64,000 bases of DNA from Leptolyngbya sp. FACHB-8. Lineage in GTDB: Bacteria > Cyanobacteriota > Cyanobacteriia > Elainellales > Elainellaceae. Position 1 is the first letter of the stretch. Each line of letters starts with the position of its first letter. Both the position numbers and the translations under genes were made by a program. The stretch covers positions 1 through 64,000 of the forward strand of contig NZ_JACJOO010000018.1 in NCBI RefSeq assembly GCF_014695575.1, in the 5' to 3' direction. Below, one piece after another: positions 46,958 through 54,119 of the stretch. The notes under the pieces are model-generated. The model saw only the letters and a list, made by a program, of their open reading frames with translations. It ran no database searches and was not told the origin of the DNA.

Positions 46958-49900
46958 ATGATCAATCAACCGCTTCTGAGATATGGATTGGCGCTTGTGA
47001 CAACAATCACGGCCCTGCTGCTGATGTTGGCGTTTGACCCCATCGTTCATCTGTCTCAGGCTTCCTTTTTGCTCTTTTTTGGTGCCGTTACCCTCACAGC
47101 TTTATATGGCGGACGTAATCCTGCGATCGTTGCAACGGTTCTGGCTGCCGTATTCGCTAACTATTTCTTCCTCGGTCCCAAGTACCAATGGACGATGGAT
47201 TTAGCCAGTAGCATTCGAATGCTACTGTTTCTGGGGCAAGGAATTCTCATTAGTGTTTTAGTCGGGGCACTTCGAACAGCACAAGAACAGGCTCAGAAGA
47301 GCTTGAAGCAACTGCAGGCTTCAGAGATAGAAATCAAAACACTCAACCAGGAACTGCAACATCAAGTTGACGAATTAACGGTTGCCGAACGAACCCTGAG
47401 AGCGAGTGAGGAACGGTTGCGGGTTGCTCTGAAAAATGCACCAATCGCTGTTTTTAACCAAAATACAGAATTAGTCTATACCTGGATTTATAACCCAACG
47501 TTTGATTATCAGGTTGATCAAGTAGTGGGTAAGCGCGATCGCGACTTAGTTCCCGAGAAGGATGCCCTACTTCTCGATCGAATCAAAGGGGGTGTCCTGG
47601 CAACAGGTGTGGGAGTACGAGAGGAAGTCAAGCTCACCATTGATGGAGAAATTTACCATTATGACTTGACTGTTGAACCGTTACAAAATGAGCAGGGTGT
47701 TGTTATTGGAGTTACGTGCGCCGCCATTGATGTCACGAAGCGCAAACAAGCGGAGGAATCGCTGTGGCAAAGTGAGCAGCGATTCCGACAGTTGGTTGAA
47801 TCCAATATGTTTGGTGTTGCGTTTAGTCGAGCCAACGGAGAAATGTATTATGCCAATGATTATTTTCTCAATATGGTGGGGTATACCCGAGAGGATTTGA
47901 AGGCTGGGCGTATCCAATGGCTTGACATGACACCCCCAGAATTTCGCCTCCTGGATGAGCAGGCCAACTTGGAGTTACAGGAATTTGGCGTTGCAACCCC
48001 TTTTGAGAAAGAATACATTCGCAAGGATGGTAGCCGAGTTCCCATTCTGGTAGGCGTCACTTTATCTCAAGAACCGTCCGATCACGAGCAGGAATCTATT
48101 TGCTTTTATATCGATTTGACTGAGCGCAAGCGGGTAGAAGTTGCATGGCAGGAAGATAAACAAATCCTGGATGCTCTGATGGAATATATTCCTGAAGGCA
48201 TTACCATTGCCGATGCCCCCGATGTCATCATTCGCAAAGTCAGTAAGCATGGGCAACAGTTAGTCGGACGGCCACTAGAACGATTGGAGGGCACTACGGC
48301 CAGCACTCATGTGGATGACTGGGGCATCTTTCGGGCCGATGGCATCGCACGACCCACTGAGGATGAACTCCCTCTAACTCGTGCAGTACGCCAGTCGGAA
48401 GTCGTCGTGAATGAAGAATGGGTTGTTCAACAGCCCGACGGCGGCAAAATCAGTATTCTCTGCAATGCAGGCCCCATTCATGATGCCAAAGGCAATACGA
48501 CAGGGGGTATTCTGGCCTGGCGAGACATTACGGAGCGTAAGCAAGCCGAGGAAAGACTACGGCAGGCCCTACAAAAACTCACCTTCCACGTTGAAAATAC
48601 TCCCATAGCGGTGATTGAGTGGAACCGAGATTTTCGAATCACTCGCTGGTCCGGAGCAGCCGAACGAATTTTAGGTTGGTCGTCAGAGGAGGTTCTTGGC
48701 AAGCCATTGGCAGACTTACATTTCGTTTATGAAGACGATATGCAAGAAGTCACTGACGTTTGCGAACGATTGGCACTGGGTGAAGAACCTTTTATCTTTT
48801 CGTATAACCGTAACTACACAAAGAACAGGGATGTCGTGCATTGTGAATGGTACAACTCCAGTCTGCGGGACACGAATGGACAGATGCTCTCTGTTCTATC
48901 CCTTGTTCTAGATGTCACCGATCGCAAACAAGTTGAAACGGAACGTGAACAACTCTTAGCACGGGAACGAGCGGCTCGTACCGAAGCGGAAGCCGCTAAC
49001 CGTGTTAAAGATGAATTTTTGGCCGTACTTTCCCACGAGTTGCGATCGCCCCTTAACCCCATTCTCGGCTGGTCTCGCCTCCTGCAAACCAAAAAGCTTG
49101 ACGAAGCAAAAGTGACTGAAGCCCTCAAAACCATCGAACGCAATGCCCGCCTGCAAGCCGAACTGATCGAAGATCTGTTGGATGTCTCCCGAATTTTGCA
49201 GGGCAAGCTGACCCTCAATCTTTCGGCCATTGATTTAAGCACAACGATTCAAGCCGCTATCGAAACGGTTCGTTTAGCCGCTGAAGCCAAAGCGATCCAC
49301 ATTGAAACCGAGTTACAGCCCGGCTCAGATCCGATTGTTGGGGATGCTAGCCGCTTACAGCAAATTGTATGGAATTTGCTTTCTAACGCCGTTAAGTTCA
49401 CCCCATCTGGGGGCAGGGTTCATATACGGCTACAACAGGCCGGTTCTCAGGCGCAAATTATTGTCAGTGACACTGGAAAAGGCATTTCTCCAGAGTTTCT
49501 GCCCCACGTGTTCGAGTACTTTCGGCAAGCTGATTCCTCTACCACTCGCAAATTTGGAGGGTTGGGGTTAGGACTTGCTATCGTGCGCCACCTGGTGGAA
49601 CTACATGGAGGAACTATCCAGGCCGAAAGTCCGGGGGAAGGTTTGGGTGCTACCTTCACAGTTCAACTGCCGTTGATGGCAAGGGTTGCTGCCACGTCTC
49701 AACGTCATGTCTTACCCAAGCAACGGCCTAACCTGAATGGCATCAAGGTGCTGGTGGTTGACGATGACCCCGATGGTCGTGAGTTTGTCGCCTTTTTATT
49801 GGAACAGGAAATGGCAACCGTTATCACGGTCGCGTCTGCCCATGAAGCTCTGACAACGCTGCTCACCGTTAAGCCCAACATATTACTCAGCGATATCGGC

Positions 49901-50125
49901 ATGCCCGATACGGATGGTTATACATTCATCCAGAAAGTCAGGTCACTGCCGCCCCAACAGGGGGGAATGATTCCGGCGATCGCGCTCACTGCCTATGCCT
50001 CAGAGTTTGACCAGCAGTTAGCCCTACAAGCCGGGTTTCAAAAACACATCTCCAAACCCATCGAACCGGATGCCTTAATCCAGGCCATCATCGATTTAGT
50101 AGGAGTAATGGCAATCCCTGAGTAA
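46958..50125 (+). CDS. Giant hybrid histidine kinase 4 (DUF4118 membrane module-4 PAS-HisKA-HATPase-REC)
   Basis: 1055 residues, the only kinase of the five with membrane helices: four in the first 110 residues, in a KdpD/DUF4118-like arrangement (LTALYGGRNPAIVATVLAAV, FANYFFLGP). A coiled coil (AQEQAQKSLKQLQASEIEIK) leads to four PAS/PAC units (about 145-265, 270-395, 400-525, 530-655), then HisKA with His693, HATPase and a receiver (VVDDDPDGREF, LLSDIGMPDTDG). GGAG lies 8 bases before the ATG, inside the end of kinase 3, so translation is probably coupled. It may be the membrane anchor of the array. Confidence 0.92.
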   Translation: MINQPLLRYGLALVTTITALLLMLAFDPIVHLSQASFLLFFGAVTLTALYGGRNPAIVATVLAAVFANYFFLGPKYQWTMDLASSIRMLLFLGQGILISVLVGALRTAQEQAQKSLKQLQASEIEIKTLNQELQHQVDELTVAERTLRASEERLRVALKNAPIAVFNQNTELVYTWIYNPTFDYQVDQVVGKRDRDLVPEKDALLLDRIKGGVLATGVGVREEVKLTIDGEIYHYDLTVEPLQNEQGVVIGVTCAAIDVTKRKQAEESLWQSEQRFRQLVESNMFGVAFSRANGEMYYANDYFLNMVGYTREDLKAGRIQWLDMTPPEFRLLDEQANLELQEFGVATPFEKEYIRKDGSRVPILVGVTLSQEPSDHEQESICFYIDLTERKRVEVAWQEDKQILDALMEYIPEGITIADAPDVIIRKVSKHGQQLVGRPLERLEGTTASTHVDDWGIFRADGIARPTEDELPLTRAVRQSEVVVNEEWVVQQPDGGKISILCNAGPIHDAKGNTTGGILAWRDITERKQAEERLRQALQKLTFHVENTPIAVIEWNRDFRITRWSGAAERILGWSSEEVLGKPLADLHFVYEDDMQEVTDVCERLALGEEPFIFSYNRNYTKNRDVVHCEWYNSSLRDTNGQMLSVLSLVLDVTDRKQVETEREQLLARERAARTEAEAANRVKDEFLAVLSHELRSPLNPILGWSRLLQTKKLDEAKVTEALKTIERNARLQAELIEDLLDVSRILQGKLTLNLSAIDLSTTIQAAIETVRLAAEAKAIHIETELQPGSDPIVGDASRLQQIVWNLLSNAVKFTPSGGRVHIRLQQAGSQAQIIVSDTGKGISPEFLPHVFEYFRQADSSTTRKFGGLGLGLAIVRHLVELHGGTIQAESPGEGLGATFTVQLPLMARVAATSQRHVLPKQRPNLNGIKVLVVDDDPDGREFVAFLLEQEMATVITVASAHEALTTLLTVKPNILLSDIGMPDTDGYTFIQKVRSLPPQQGGMIPAIALTAYASEFDQQLALQAGFQKHISKPIEPDALIQAIIDLVGVMAIPE

Positions 50126-50402
50126 CAGTAACCAATCTTCTGTGAGCCTTGTAGGTGCAATCTAGTATCTATCCCGAAGGCTTCCCCAGAACGTGCTTTA
50201 AAGCGGAGTGTACCGTCCCTCCTCTGGTAGATCCTAAATCGCTAAAAATCCCCTTTAATATAGAGATCAACCGTATGTTGATACGGTGAATGACTGCCCA
50301 AAAGGAGTAAAAATCAGGTCAGCTGGGGGTGGGCAACTGACCCGCAGGCTCATTTACCGCAGTTAGCTGATGGGTTTGCTTTTTAATTTTGGTACAACAC
50401 CA
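50126..50402. promoter_or_regulatory. Gap before kinase 5 with a perfect palindrome and a second hairpin
   Basis: ACCGTATGTTGATACGGT (50270-50287) is perfectly symmetric (7-bp arms, 4-bp centre). GGTCAG (50317-50322) pairs with CTGACC (50337-50342) around a G-rich loop. This is the only long gap inside the kinase cluster, so kinase 5 may have its own promoter and operator here. AAAGGAG (50300-50306) is too far from either start to serve as its ribosome binding site. Confidence 0.5.
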
Positions 50403-53400
50403 ATGAGACGGGACAAAACAGGCCGATTTATTCCGAACTGGACGCAGGAAATCAAGCACGCCGTTAATCTTTCACTCACACAAACCGCCTGGCAGCTTTT
50501 AGAAAAGCAAGCTCAAAACCAGGGTATTTCCCGTTCTGAATTAATCGAATGTTTTGCCCGCAGTTTAGCACAAGCCCATCCGGCCCTTATAGATCATCAT
50601 GGATCGGTGCAAGCCGCCTCCCCAACCGATCGCTCCGTTGCAAGCCCCTTGAAGGAGCAGGAATTCCTTCAGGTGCTTCTGGATAATGTGCAGGCAGGCA
50701 TTGTTGCCTGTGATGCCGATGGAGAATTGAAGCTGTTCAATCAAGTTGCCCGTTCGTTTCACGGTTTACCCGAAAAGCCCCTACCACCAGAGCAGTGGGC
50801 CGAGTTTTATGACTTGTATTTGCCTGACGGCAAGACTCCTATGGCCACCCAGGATATTCCCTTGTTTCGGGCCCTCCAGGGGGAGTCTGTGCACCAGATG
50901 GAGATGATGATCATCCCCAAACAGGGACTACCACGAACGTTGCTGGCAAACGCTGAAGCAATTGTCACGCCTACGGGGAAAAAGTTGGGTGCCGTGGTCG
51001 TGATGCACGACATCACGGAGCGCAAGCAGATAGAAATGGTGTTGCGCGATCGCGAAACCCAGCTTCAAAGTATTTTCCAAACCATTCCCGATGGCATTGT
51101 GATTTTGGATCGATCCGGTCAAATTACCGCTGCAAATCCAGCAGCAGAAGCGATTCTTCGATTAACCAACAGCAACATCACGGAGCGGATCTACAATAAT
51201 CCTTCCTGGACCATTACAACGGTTGAGGGCTTACCGTTTCCAGAGGAAGAGTTGCCTTTTGTTCGTGTCATAGCAACTGGACAGCCAGTTTATGGTGTTG
51301 AACATGCCATTACTCACACCGATGGCACCACAATTATTCTTTCGATCAATGCCTCACCTCTGTTTGATGCGGACGGGCAGATGATTAACATCGTCACCGC
51401 ACTCAGCGACATTACGGCTCGCAAGAAGGCAGATGCAGCGTTGCGGGAATCAGAAGAACGTTATCGCTCAGTCATTGAGATGGCTGCAGAAGGCATTATT
51501 CTTCAGTATGCAGATGGCAAAATCTTCACCTGCAATACCAGTGCTGAACAGATTTTAGGCCAGACAGCAGAGCAGTTGATGGGACGTACCTCCCTGGATC
51601 CCGGGTGGCAGTCGATTTATGAGGATGGTTCTCCGTTTCCAGGGAACTTACACCCATCTATGGTGACACTGCGAACGGGAGAGCCCCAATCCAATGTGAT
51701 CATGGGTATCCGGAAGCCAGATGAAACTCTAACCTGGATTTCCATCAACACTCGCCCTTTGTTTCGTCCGAAAGATACAAAACCTTTTGCCGTTGTCGCT
51801 TCATTTTTTGACATTACCCAACGCAAACAGGTGGAGGAACAACGGTCAACCTTAATCCAGGAACAAGCCGCTCGGTTAGCGGCCGAAACAGCACAGCAAC
51901 AATCTGCATTTCTAGCAGAAGTGAGTGCCGTGCTGTCATCCTCCCTGGACTATGAGCAAACGCTTCAGAGCGTTGCGGATTTGGCCGTTCCCCGGGTCGC
52001 CGATTGGTGCAGCGTGGATTTAGTGAGTGACGATCGCATCATTAGTCGCGTGGCTGTAGCTCACACGGACCCAGAAAAAGTAAAGTTTGCCTGGGAGGTA
52101 GTGCAGCGGTTTCCCCCCTCTCTAGATAATAACTACGGCATTGCTCAGGTTATTAAATCGGGGCGCAGCGAAATTGCAGCCCATATTACGGATGAGCAGT
52201 TAGCTGTCATTCAGAACCAGGAGTACTTACAAGTCATTCGGGGGTTGGGTATAAAGTCTTGTATCATCGCACCGTTAGAGGCGCGAGGCCGAGTATTGGG
52301 TACGATTTCGTTCATCTATAGCGAATCAAACCGCCAATATGGCAAAGCTGATCTGATACTGGCAGAGGATCTAGCCCGTCGAGCCGCGATCGCCATCGAC
52401 AATGCCCGGCTGTTCCAAGAAGCTCAACAGGCCTGTCAGGCGGCTGAGAAGGCCGCTGATCGTACGGCTCGTCTGCAAACAATCATGGCAGCTCTATCGG
52501 AGTCCCTAACTCCCCAACAGGTGGCTGATGTGATTGTGCAGCAAAGCATTGCTGCATTATCAGCGGATTCTGCCCTGATGACGGTACTGACGGATGACGA
52601 GAAAGAATTAGAGATTATCAAAGCGGTGGGATACCACACGGATATCGTAGAATCATGGCGACGGTTTCCGGTGTCGGCAGCAGTTCCCCTGGCGGATGCG
52701 GTCCGCACAGGAACGCCAGTTTGGGCAGAGACAAAGGCCGAGCGGTTAGCTCGTTACCCGCATCTGGCAGACATTTACAGCCGCTATGATTTCAACTCAT
52801 GGATCTCGTTGCCGCTGATGAGTGAAGGCAAAGCCGTAGGCGGTATGCTGCTCAGCTTTAAAGAACATAAGTCTCTCAGCCAGGATGATCGCGATTTTAT
52901 TCTGGCCGTGAGCCGGCAATGTGCCCAGGCTATTTCTCGTGCTCAGGCCTACGAAGCCGAACGCAAAGCACGGGCAGAGGCAGAAGCTGCCAACCGCATT
53001 AAAGACGAGTTCCTAGCCGTGCTTTCCCATGAGTTGCGATCGCCCCTTAACCCCATCTTGGGCTGGGCGAAACTCCTGCAAACCAGAAAATTAGATGCGG
53101 CAAAAGTTACCGAAGCGTTAAAAATCATCGAGCGTAACGCTCGTCTGCAATCTGAATTAATTGAGGATTTGCTGGATGTATCGCGCATTTTGCAGGGCAA
53201 GCTCAGCCTGAACCGGGCTGCTGTTGACCTCACCACGACCATTCATGCAGCGCTCGAAACAGTTCGCTTGTCTGCTGAGGCCAAGGCGATCCAGATTGAA
53301 ACGCAACTGGCGACTAATGTTGGGCAGGTTTTAGGGGATTCCAGCCGTCTCCAACAAGTCGTCTGGAATCTCCTGTCGAATGCCGTCAAATTCACACCGG

Positions 53401-54119
53401 AGGGCGGCAAGGTTCATGTGCAACTGGAGCAGATGGGTTCCTACGCCCAAATTATTGTCAGCGATACGGGAAAAGGCATCGCACCAGAATTTCTTCCTCA
53501 CGTGTTCGAGTATTTTCGGCAGGCTGACGCAACAACAACGCGCAAATTTGGCGGCTTAGGGCTGGGCCTGGCGATCGTCCGACATCTCGTTGAATTACAC
53601 GGGGGAACGATTCAGGTAGAAAGCCCAGGGGAAGGGCAGGGTGCAACGTTCACGGTACAACTGCCGCTGCTTGCCAAGATTTCTCCGGCATCCCCCGTAG
53701 GGGAACTTCATACGCATCTACCCAGTTTGAATGGGATCAAGGCCTTAGTCGTCGATGATGACGCTGACGCTCGTGACCTGGTTGCATTTTTACTGGAACA
53801 CGAACAGGCAACCGTCATAACGGCTTCCTCTGCGTCAGAAGCGCTAATTGCTCTAGCCAAATTTCAACCGGACATCTTGTTAAGCGATATCGGCATGCCA
53901 GATATGGATGGCTATATGCTTCTACAAAAGGTGCGATCGCTTCCTCCCGATCAAGGGGGGTTGATTCCGGCGATCGCCCTCAGCGCCTATGCAGCGGAAT
54001 ACGACCAACGTCAGGCACTCAGAGTTGGTTTTCAGAAGCACATTCCCAAACCTGTTGATCCAGAAACTCTGATCAAAGCCATTTCTGAATACATTCACGT
54101 TAAATCATCAATCCATTAG
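50403..54119 (+). CDS. Giant hybrid histidine kinase 5 with N-terminal ribbon-helix-helix segment
   Basis: 1238 residues from the ATG at 50403 (an in-frame ATG at 50370 adds 11 residues; neither has a good ribosome binding site). Residues about 1-60 read as a ribbon-helix-helix (CopG-like) domain: RDKTGRFIPNW, strand VNLSL, helix TQTAWQLLEKQAQNQG, helix SRSELIECFARSLAQ. Then three PAS units (about 90-220, 225-355, 360-485), two GAF domains (about 510-675 and 690-850), HisKA with His876, HATPase and a receiver (VVDDDADARDL, LLSDIGMPDMDG). A DNA-binding head on a hybrid kinase is unusual and could let the kinase act directly at DNA. Its stop overlaps the stop of the convergent peptidase gene by 4 bases (54116-54119). 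Confidence 0.88.
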   Translation: MRRDKTGRFIPNWTQEIKHAVNLSLTQTAWQLLEKQAQNQGISRSELIECFARSLAQAHPALIDHHGSVQAASPTDRSVASPLKEQEFLQVLLDNVQAGIVACDADGELKLFNQVARSFHGLPEKPLPPEQWAEFYDLYLPDGKTPMATQDIPLFRALQGESVHQMEMMIIPKQGLPRTLLANAEAIVTPTGKKLGAVVVMHDITERKQIEMVLRDRETQLQSIFQTIPDGIVILDRSGQITAANPAAEAILRLTNSNITERIYNNPSWTITTVEGLPFPEEELPFVRVIATGQPVYGVEHAITHTDGTTIILSINASPLFDADGQMINIVTALSDITARKKADAALRESEERYRSVIEMAAEGIILQYADGKIFTCNTSAEQILGQTAEQLMGRTSLDPGWQSIYEDGSPFPGNLHPSMVTLRTGEPQSNVIMGIRKPDETLTWISINTRPLFRPKDTKPFAVVASFFDITQRKQVEEQRSTLIQEQAARLAAETAQQQSAFLAEVSAVLSSSLDYEQTLQSVADLAVPRVADWCSVDLVSDDRIISRVAVAHTDPEKVKFAWEVVQRFPPSLDNNYGIAQVIKSGRSEIAAHITDEQLAVIQNQEYLQVIRGLGIKSCIIAPLEARGRVLGTISFIYSESNRQYGKADLILAEDLARRAAIAIDNARLFQEAQQACQAAEKAADRTARLQTIMAALSESLTPQQVADVIVQQSIAALSADSALMTVLTDDEKELEIIKAVGYHTDIVESWRRFPVSAAVPLADAVRTGTPVWAETKAERLARYPHLADIYSRYDFNSWISLPLMSEGKAVGGMLLSFKEHKSLSQDDRDFILAVSRQCAQAISRAQAYEAERKARAEAEAANRIKDEFLAVLSHELRSPLNPILGWAKLLQTRKLDAAKVTEALKIIERNARLQSELIEDLLDVSRILQGKLSLNRAAVDLTTTIHAALETVRLSAEAKAIQIETQLATNVGQVLGDSSRLQQVVWNLLSNAVKFTPEGGKVHVQLEQMGSYAQIIVSDTGKGIAPEFLPHVFEYFRQADATTTRKFGGLGLGLAIVRHLVELHGGTIQVESPGEGQGATFTVQLPLLAKISPASPVGELHTHLPSLNGIKALVVDDDADARDLVAFLLEHEQATVITASSASEALIALAKFQPDILLSDIGMPDMDGYMLLQKVRSLPPDQGGLIPAIALSAYAAEYDQRQALRVGFQKHIPKPVDPETLIKAISEYIHVKSSIH

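Follow-up and report, generated by a model that had tools for sequence, protein, structure and literature searches.

The window (the whole 64,000-nt stretch of DNA analysed here, from a genome of 6.9 Mb) contains five consecutive large kinase genes at 33152-54119, as delimited by reading frames, with the kinase cores taken from the tree. The last of them, kinase 5, starts at a conserved ATG at 50403; an in-frame alternative ATG at 50370 is not conserved. Close relatives start with M-K/R-R at the position of ATG 50403, and an alignment of 14 sequences shows G7, F9, and W13 as invariant. Pfam identifies kinase 5 as a hybrid sensor histidine kinase, with HisKA (E 4.2e-15), HATPase_c (E 5.9e-32), and receiver (E 2.8e-22) domains. 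The motif patterns of the H box, N box, G box, and receiver were found in 28, 31, 31, and 30 of 32 full-length relatives, respectively, and all 28 named relatives are cyanobacterial. Pfam gave no match in kinase 5 up to E 1 for proline dehydrogenase or P5C dehydrogenase, nor for a helix-turn-helix (HTH) domain; the C-terminus is Response_reg. The features of the gene and its upstream region are collected in Table 1.

Table 1. Kinase 5 and the DNA in front of it, in window coordinates.
Feature	Position	Strand	Basis
Conserved leader: box A, TTTAAT box, operator-like palindrome	50213..50287	+	Leader model R1, 56-leader alignment
Box A, CTCCTCTGGTAGATC, counterpart of the CTCC-TCTTAAGG-AGATT block	50219..50233	+	Alignments
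TTTAAT, counterpart of the TTNAAT box (5/6 positions invariant in 38 aligned leaders)	50254..50259	+	Alignment
Putative operator ACCGTAT-GTTG-ATACGGT; core CCGT-N8-ACGG at 50271-50286	50270..50287	.	Window search, family sites
115-nt spacer, operator to ATG	50288..50402	+	54/56 genes have 7-12 nt between core site and ATG
RHH hybrid histidine kinase (kinase 5)	50403..54119	+	Frames, Pfam
RHH domain, residues 17-58 (strand expected at ~19-25; helices at 27-40 and 44-58 in the model)	50451..50576	+	Profiles, model, fold matches
Recognition-strand residues A20, N22, S24 (CopG residues 4, 6, 8)	50460..50474	+	HMMER alignment, covariation
Three PAS domains, ahead of the GAF pair	from ~50679	+	Pfam
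Two GAF domains	51951..52934	+	Pfam
HisKA and HATPase_c kinase core; nearest in tree is neighbouring kinase 4	53001..53669	+	Pfam, tree
Receiver domain, C-terminal	53745..54083	+	Pfam

The initial annotation had recognized at the N-terminus the strand-helix-helix pattern of CopG-type DNA-binding proteins, and this was borne out by matches to the Pfam family RHH_1 (ribbon-helix-helix) and by fold matches. All 28 aligned N-termini matched RHH_1 in a profile search (best E 8.7e-7). The 66 residues of the window alone gave E 0.0049 and 17.2 bits, which is under the curated cut-off of 20.5, and among seven full-length relatives scanned, two scored above the cut-off (24.6 and 23.4 bits), three scored under it, and two had no RHH_1 match at E 0.01. 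The family profile aligned weakly with CopG residues 1-33 (E 0.011) and, also among RHH proteins of known structure, with the antitoxin Rv0298 (E 0.0026); designed helical proteins appeared among its weak matches as well. The monomer model of the N-terminus had a pLDDT of 80 overall and of 90-96 over residues 21-50, with the two helices following an extended segment in which no strand was assigned in the monomer. CopG-DNA occupied the top Foldseek rows with probability 1.00 but E 0.15, and no Foldseek match was found at E<=0.001. In VIA-align, the first row was the PutA-RHH/operator complex 2rbf (Z 6.1, rmsd 1.4, 44 aligned residues), tied with Arc and CopG; these first rows spanned Z 5.9-6.1, 44-45 residues, and rmsd 1.1-1.7, and a Z below 8 may reflect merely a common arrangement. 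Taken with the family context, the profile and fold matches make the assignment of the kinase 5 N-terminus as an RHH domain secure. The same N-terminus is present on other kinases: five, that of kinase 5 included, occur in the own genome, each opening a frame of 1104-1775 codons, and further RHH-headed genes occur in relatives.

Related domains were also seen in other settings. Stand-alone RHH proteins of ~70-130 residues, kin to the kinase heads, occur in many of the searched cyanobacterial genomes (L017, L027, L033, and others), and two frames, of 287 and 323 codons at L184 and L183, carry the same RHH type at their C-terminal end; the L184 frame has a start that is TetR-like by eye.

A perfect 18-bp palindrome had been annotated in front of the gene. 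Its position was correct, with ACCGTATGTTGATACGGT at 50270-50287, 133-116 bases before ATG 50403, but it is made of 7-bp arms around a GTTG centre that is not self-complementary. The palindrome alone is no better than chance, because six inverted repeats of the 7-4-7 type, and 66 with spacers of 0-8, occur in the 64 kb. It is unique in the window with up to 3 mismatches allowed, and the window copy is the sole exact match in the own genome; at <=2 mismatches there are 14 matches per strand, fewer than for the reversed control (28). A position matrix trained on relatives scored the site at 10.9 bits. Of 127,970 window positions, 3 attain this value, its own included. The window's operator copy is weak by this matrix and is a divergent member of its family.

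The upstream DNA of 56 distinct RHH-headed genes was compared as a leader set. In 54 of these genes, the distance from the best match to CCGTGTATGCATACGG to the ATG is 7-12 bp; it is 23 bp in L087 and 116 bp in the window. The strict form CCGT-N8-ACGG was present in 47 of the 56 best sites, including that of the window, and the others are similar. The distances between operator and ATG vary by a base or two, which makes it unlikely that the leaders have an upstream reading frame in common. A typical leader is ~80 bp long with the operator-like site inside it, and the leader alignments show two blocks ahead of the operator, TTNAAT and, further upstream, CTCC-TCTTAAGG-AGATT. TTNAAT resembles neither a -35 nor a -10 element well by eye, and scanning the + strand for promoters and terminators gave no match.

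We built a sequence-only leader model, R1, from 38 leaders, excluding that of the window and dropping near-copies. With matches allowed up to E 10, it hit the window solely at 50213-50287, with all three blocks aligned, at E 1.7e-5 for the window and E 0.0018 over the 6.9-Mb genome, values that are rough according to the tool. R1 found no leader at the other four kinases of the cluster. It is thus the leader as a whole that sets the palindrome apart from chance. Because a model blind to the window matches solely at 50213-50287, the palindrome is kinase 5's divergent copy of the family site, with ~105 bp extra between it and the ATG.

The 115-nt spacer that separates the operator from the ATG has a single further match in the genome, of 19 nt at E 0.37; it is otherwise unique and is not a repeat family there. 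It contains an inverted repeat with 9-nt arms at 50317-50342 and a 5-bp inverted repeat, TTGGTACAACACCAA, at 50389-50403, which ends on the A of the ATG and is preceded by a second TTTAAT. These inverted repeats and the second TTTAAT are possibly a replacement start region, and the long spacer could weaken or alter control at kinase 5 relative to its relatives.

We surveyed 388 genomes of the class. Among the matches listed, cut at E 5.2e-22, there were 50 RHH-headed frames in 34 genomes; two of them are short, with 382 and 139 codons, and the check for kinase parts covered the full-length ones. The exact sequence CCGTKTAYGYATACGG occurred at 22 sites and its reversed control at none. Twenty of these sites lie directly before listed RHH-headed frames, one belongs to an orphan full leader (L118), and one is within a coding region (L130). 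The leader model gave 58 matches at E<=0.01, 42 of them at E<=1e-9, and 40 of these 42 precede an RHH-headed frame, the other two being orphans (C67:5874 of the own genome and G303:C2:699006). A leader match was present at 44 of the 50 listed frames, a recovery that is partly by construction because the model was trained on some of them; the window, the orphans, G073, and G223 are independent of the training. The six listed frames with no match are in G303 (operator present), G037, G056, G092, G113, and G131. Fourteen of the 58 matches had no listed frame, with ~4 such matches expected by chance from the E-values at E<=0.01: the two orphans, two weaker matches that pointed to divergent RHH-headed frames absent from the list (G073, which has kinase motifs, and G223, truncated at the contig end), and ten weak ones. 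At the three of the ten that were examined (C56, G230, and G237), no RHH kinase was found.

The palindrome is not supported as a genome-wide regulon site, although weaker sites may exist. At <=2 mismatches, the family consensus has 10 forward and 12 reverse matches in the own genome (control 7 and 22), and the exact sites in the 388 genomes are nearly all at RHH-headed frames. The near-sites C28:14922 and C87:16222 were unconvincing as leaders (E 0.22 and 0.29).

The orphan full leaders L118 (1501-1516) and L169 (~1501-1581), in G303 and at C67:5874 of the own genome, have no intact RHH-kinase beside them, and a degraded MKR reading frame follows the leader at C67:5874. The orphans are probably relics of lost copies. 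At L185 (2531-7911), an RHH-kinase frame is split into pieces of 382 and 1465 codons and the operator is retained. Eleven plasmid records have an RHH match, one of which is of the kinase type (Kovacikia minuta, 89% identical). Viral contigs were considered as a source of relatives, and none of the 11 stretches with the pattern was confirmed.

The half-site of the operator covaries with the recognition strand of the RHH domain. In a table of 67 unique genes, 66 of them with a usable site and with site templates chosen after the sites had been seen, the combinations of RHH residue 20 and half-site were A/S with TATG (10 genes), R with TnTA (52), R with another half-site (2), Q with another half-site (1), and K with TnTA (1). 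Thus, TATG accompanies A or S at residue 20 in 10/10 genes, and TnTA accompanies R in 52/54. The window gene, with A20/N22 and CCGTATG, has the A-type half-site, and the relative L166 combines A20/R22 with the perfect palindrome CCGTATGGCCATACGG. By our grouping, the five paralogues of the own genome carry four operator types. The A/S genes come largely from a single lineage, so that few evolutionary events underlie the covariation, which is support rather than proof. In a VIA-align match of RHH residues 19-66 to MazE6 residues 4-51, residues 20 and 22 correspond to K5 and A7, and the invariant S43-R44-S45 corresponds to S28-R29-S30. MazE6 is reported to bind an 18-bp site that holds its own -10 region, and in the modelled MazE6-operator complex K5 and A7 touch bases whereas S28, R29, and S30 touch the backbone (PMC9477884).

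Alternatively, the leader may be bound by another conserved regulator, or be merely an unusual promoter, and the RHH domain may bind elsewhere or mainly serve dimerisation. The two further conserved boxes in the leader, which an RHH domain need not explain, are in keeping with this possibility. However, leader and RHH domain travel together at 40 of the 42 strong leaders, the model sees no leader at the four neighbouring kinases, and the half-site tracks residue 20 of the RHH domain itself. We therefore consider another regulator improbable.

The palindrome might also act as an RNA hairpin in the 5' leader that controls translation. It lies 7-12 nt ahead of most start codons, and in RNAalifold folding of 53 aligned leaders (that of the window and two others dropped) each of the four outer pairs could form in 48-53 of the 53. 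The consensus energy of -3.6 was far under that of column shuffles, as it would be for any conserved palindrome. Yet the sole structure obtained was a near-invariant 4-bp stem with no compensatory change, the reverse strand folded equally well (-3.5), and the inner positions change so as to break pairing, with T-T at positions 5/12 in CCGTTTAYGYATACGG sites. We rejected an RNA element as the main explanation, and consider it very unlikely, since a 4-bp stem lacking covariation is better accommodated by a DNA site that an RHH dimer would read.

In the kinase tree, RHH-headed kinases are scattered among the others. The RHH label requires 9 changes, of which well-supported branches force at least 4. 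Shuffled labels need 9.3 on average, so the label shows no excess clustering; the tree has only 10 non-RHH rows, two of which (window_m44904 and L008_p9617) are on very long branches and are probably not real kinases. The core of kinase 5 groups with that of kinase 4, which has no RHH domain, with 100/99 support. Over 46958-54119, kinases 4 and 5 are 74% identical in the last 370 residues (72% in DNA) and have little in common before that. The two genes share a duplicated or exchanged core within the cluster, and conversion of the neighbouring core is possible. The best plasmid matches to kinase 5, from Leptolyngbya boryana, align over residues 100-1242 with 52% identity, and the one examined has 42 unrelated residues in place of the RHH domain. 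Since RHH kinases are scattered in the tree and this boryana match is without RHH, leader and RHH domain seem to stay together as a unit while the sensor and kinase bodies behind them vary, and we read the tree pattern as suggesting module reassortment.

Sequence constraint on the operator was assessed in 47 genes (1081 pairs), with 9 of the 56 dropped, that of the window among them. Mean pairwise ungapped identity reached 0.82 for the operator, against 0.50 for the preceding 60 bp, 0.26 for DNA beyond that, and 0.46 for fourfold sites within the RHH domain. As the 60-bp mean (ungapped) is barely above the fourfold value, constraint ahead of the operator is confined to the blocks. Among the other four paralogues of the own genome, kinase 5 being left aside, fourfold identity was 0.12-0.20 in five of six pairs and 0.48 in the sixth, and operator identity was 0.56-0.94 over all six. 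In the five low-fourfold pairs, each with few fourfold sites, the operator was 0.56-0.75 identical and the preceding 60 bp 50-67%. The operator likeness is most simply read as selection, because the fourfold sites of the paralogues are saturated while the operator and the 60 bp before it stay similar. That leader and RHH domain are alike through recent recombination or gene conversion copying a 5' module, the palindrome being functionless, would fit kinase cores that do not follow the RHH grouping and the existence of orphan leaders, but is scarcely credible against saturated fourfold sites (12-20% in 5/6 pairs) beside operators that are 56-75% identical.

RHH proteins bind two-fold symmetric sites as dimers, with the paired strands inserted into the major groove as a two-stranded ribbon, and histidine kinases are expected to be homodimers. 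With an RHH module in the protein and a matching symmetric site before its own and its relatives' genes, kinase 5 probably controls its own production. We consider it likely that the N-terminal RHH domain of this hybrid kinase forms a dimer, binds the kinase's own promoter region, and confers autoregulation in the manner of PutA. Two RHH subunits would form such a ribbon, and its target would be the major groove at the CCGT-N8-ACGG palindrome, within the leader conserved before the kinase's own gene. Protein bound 7-12 bp before the ATG, as in most relatives, would hinder the initiation or elongation of transcription, and the most likely outcome would be negative autoregulation of the kinase level, possibly gated by PAS/GAF signals or by phosphorylation. 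The earlier suggestion that the kinase may sit on DNA is strengthened by the RHH domain, by a leader nearly confined to RHH-headed genes, and by a half-site that tracks the recognition strand; the repression or tuning of its own gene that was proposed with it is something we infer rather than observe.

PutA, the trifunctional proline utilization A, is described as a large multidomain protein in which an N-terminal RHH domain drives dimerisation and which acts as an autogenous repressor of its regulon (PMC5293562). Kinase 5 resembles it in being a multidomain protein headed by an RHH domain, and the mechanism proposed here is that of PutA. PutA, however, is a flavoenzyme able to switch to the membrane, whereas the RHH domain of kinase 5 precedes the PAS, GAF, HisKA, HATPase_c, and receiver domains of a hybrid histidine kinase. 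Kinase 5 may work like PutA by analogy but, having no match to either dehydrogenase domain, is not a PutA member. The autorepressors of the CopG, Arc, and MazE6 type share the RHH fold and a symmetric site in their own promoter region, to which the putative operator of kinase 5 would correspond, but, in contrast to kinase 5, are small stand-alone proteins or antitoxins. Hybrid two-component systems with a C-terminal AraC-type HTH combine a kinase and a DNA-binding domain in one chain. Kinase 5 is likewise a single chain, with an N-terminal RHH and a C-terminal receiver instead. One sentence in the 2007 description of cTFbase mentions CopG-family domains fused to PAS, GAF, HisKA, and HATPase_c in freshwater or soil cyanobacteria, the architecture of kinase 5, and that sentence gives no operator, leader, covariation, or mechanism (PMC1858693). 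Our searches of the open-access literature turned up no account of the operator, the leader, the cassette, or the match between strand and operator. The fusion has been on record since 2007, and the operator, leader, and strand match of this probable RHH autoregulator within a sensor kinase appear to be new.

A broader reading, which we put forward tentatively and regard as doubtful in its full extent, is that these proteins form a class of DNA-tethered kinases. The leader and the RHH domain would be a cassette placed on varied sensor-kinase bodies, giving autoregulatory circuits and operator codes specific to each paralogue, with the signal state (PAS/GAF or phosphorylation) passed to the RHH head. 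If this is true, one protein would be both a sensor kinase and a signal-gated repressor, with no need for a separate response regulator. Sensor kinases are normally thought to contact DNA only via response regulators. Kinases that seemingly read their own promoter region directly, in at least 34 of the 388 genomes, would therefore represent a distinct two-component wiring, and, because recognition strand and operator can be read as matched pairs, the separate expression of similar hybrid kinases in one genome becomes testable.
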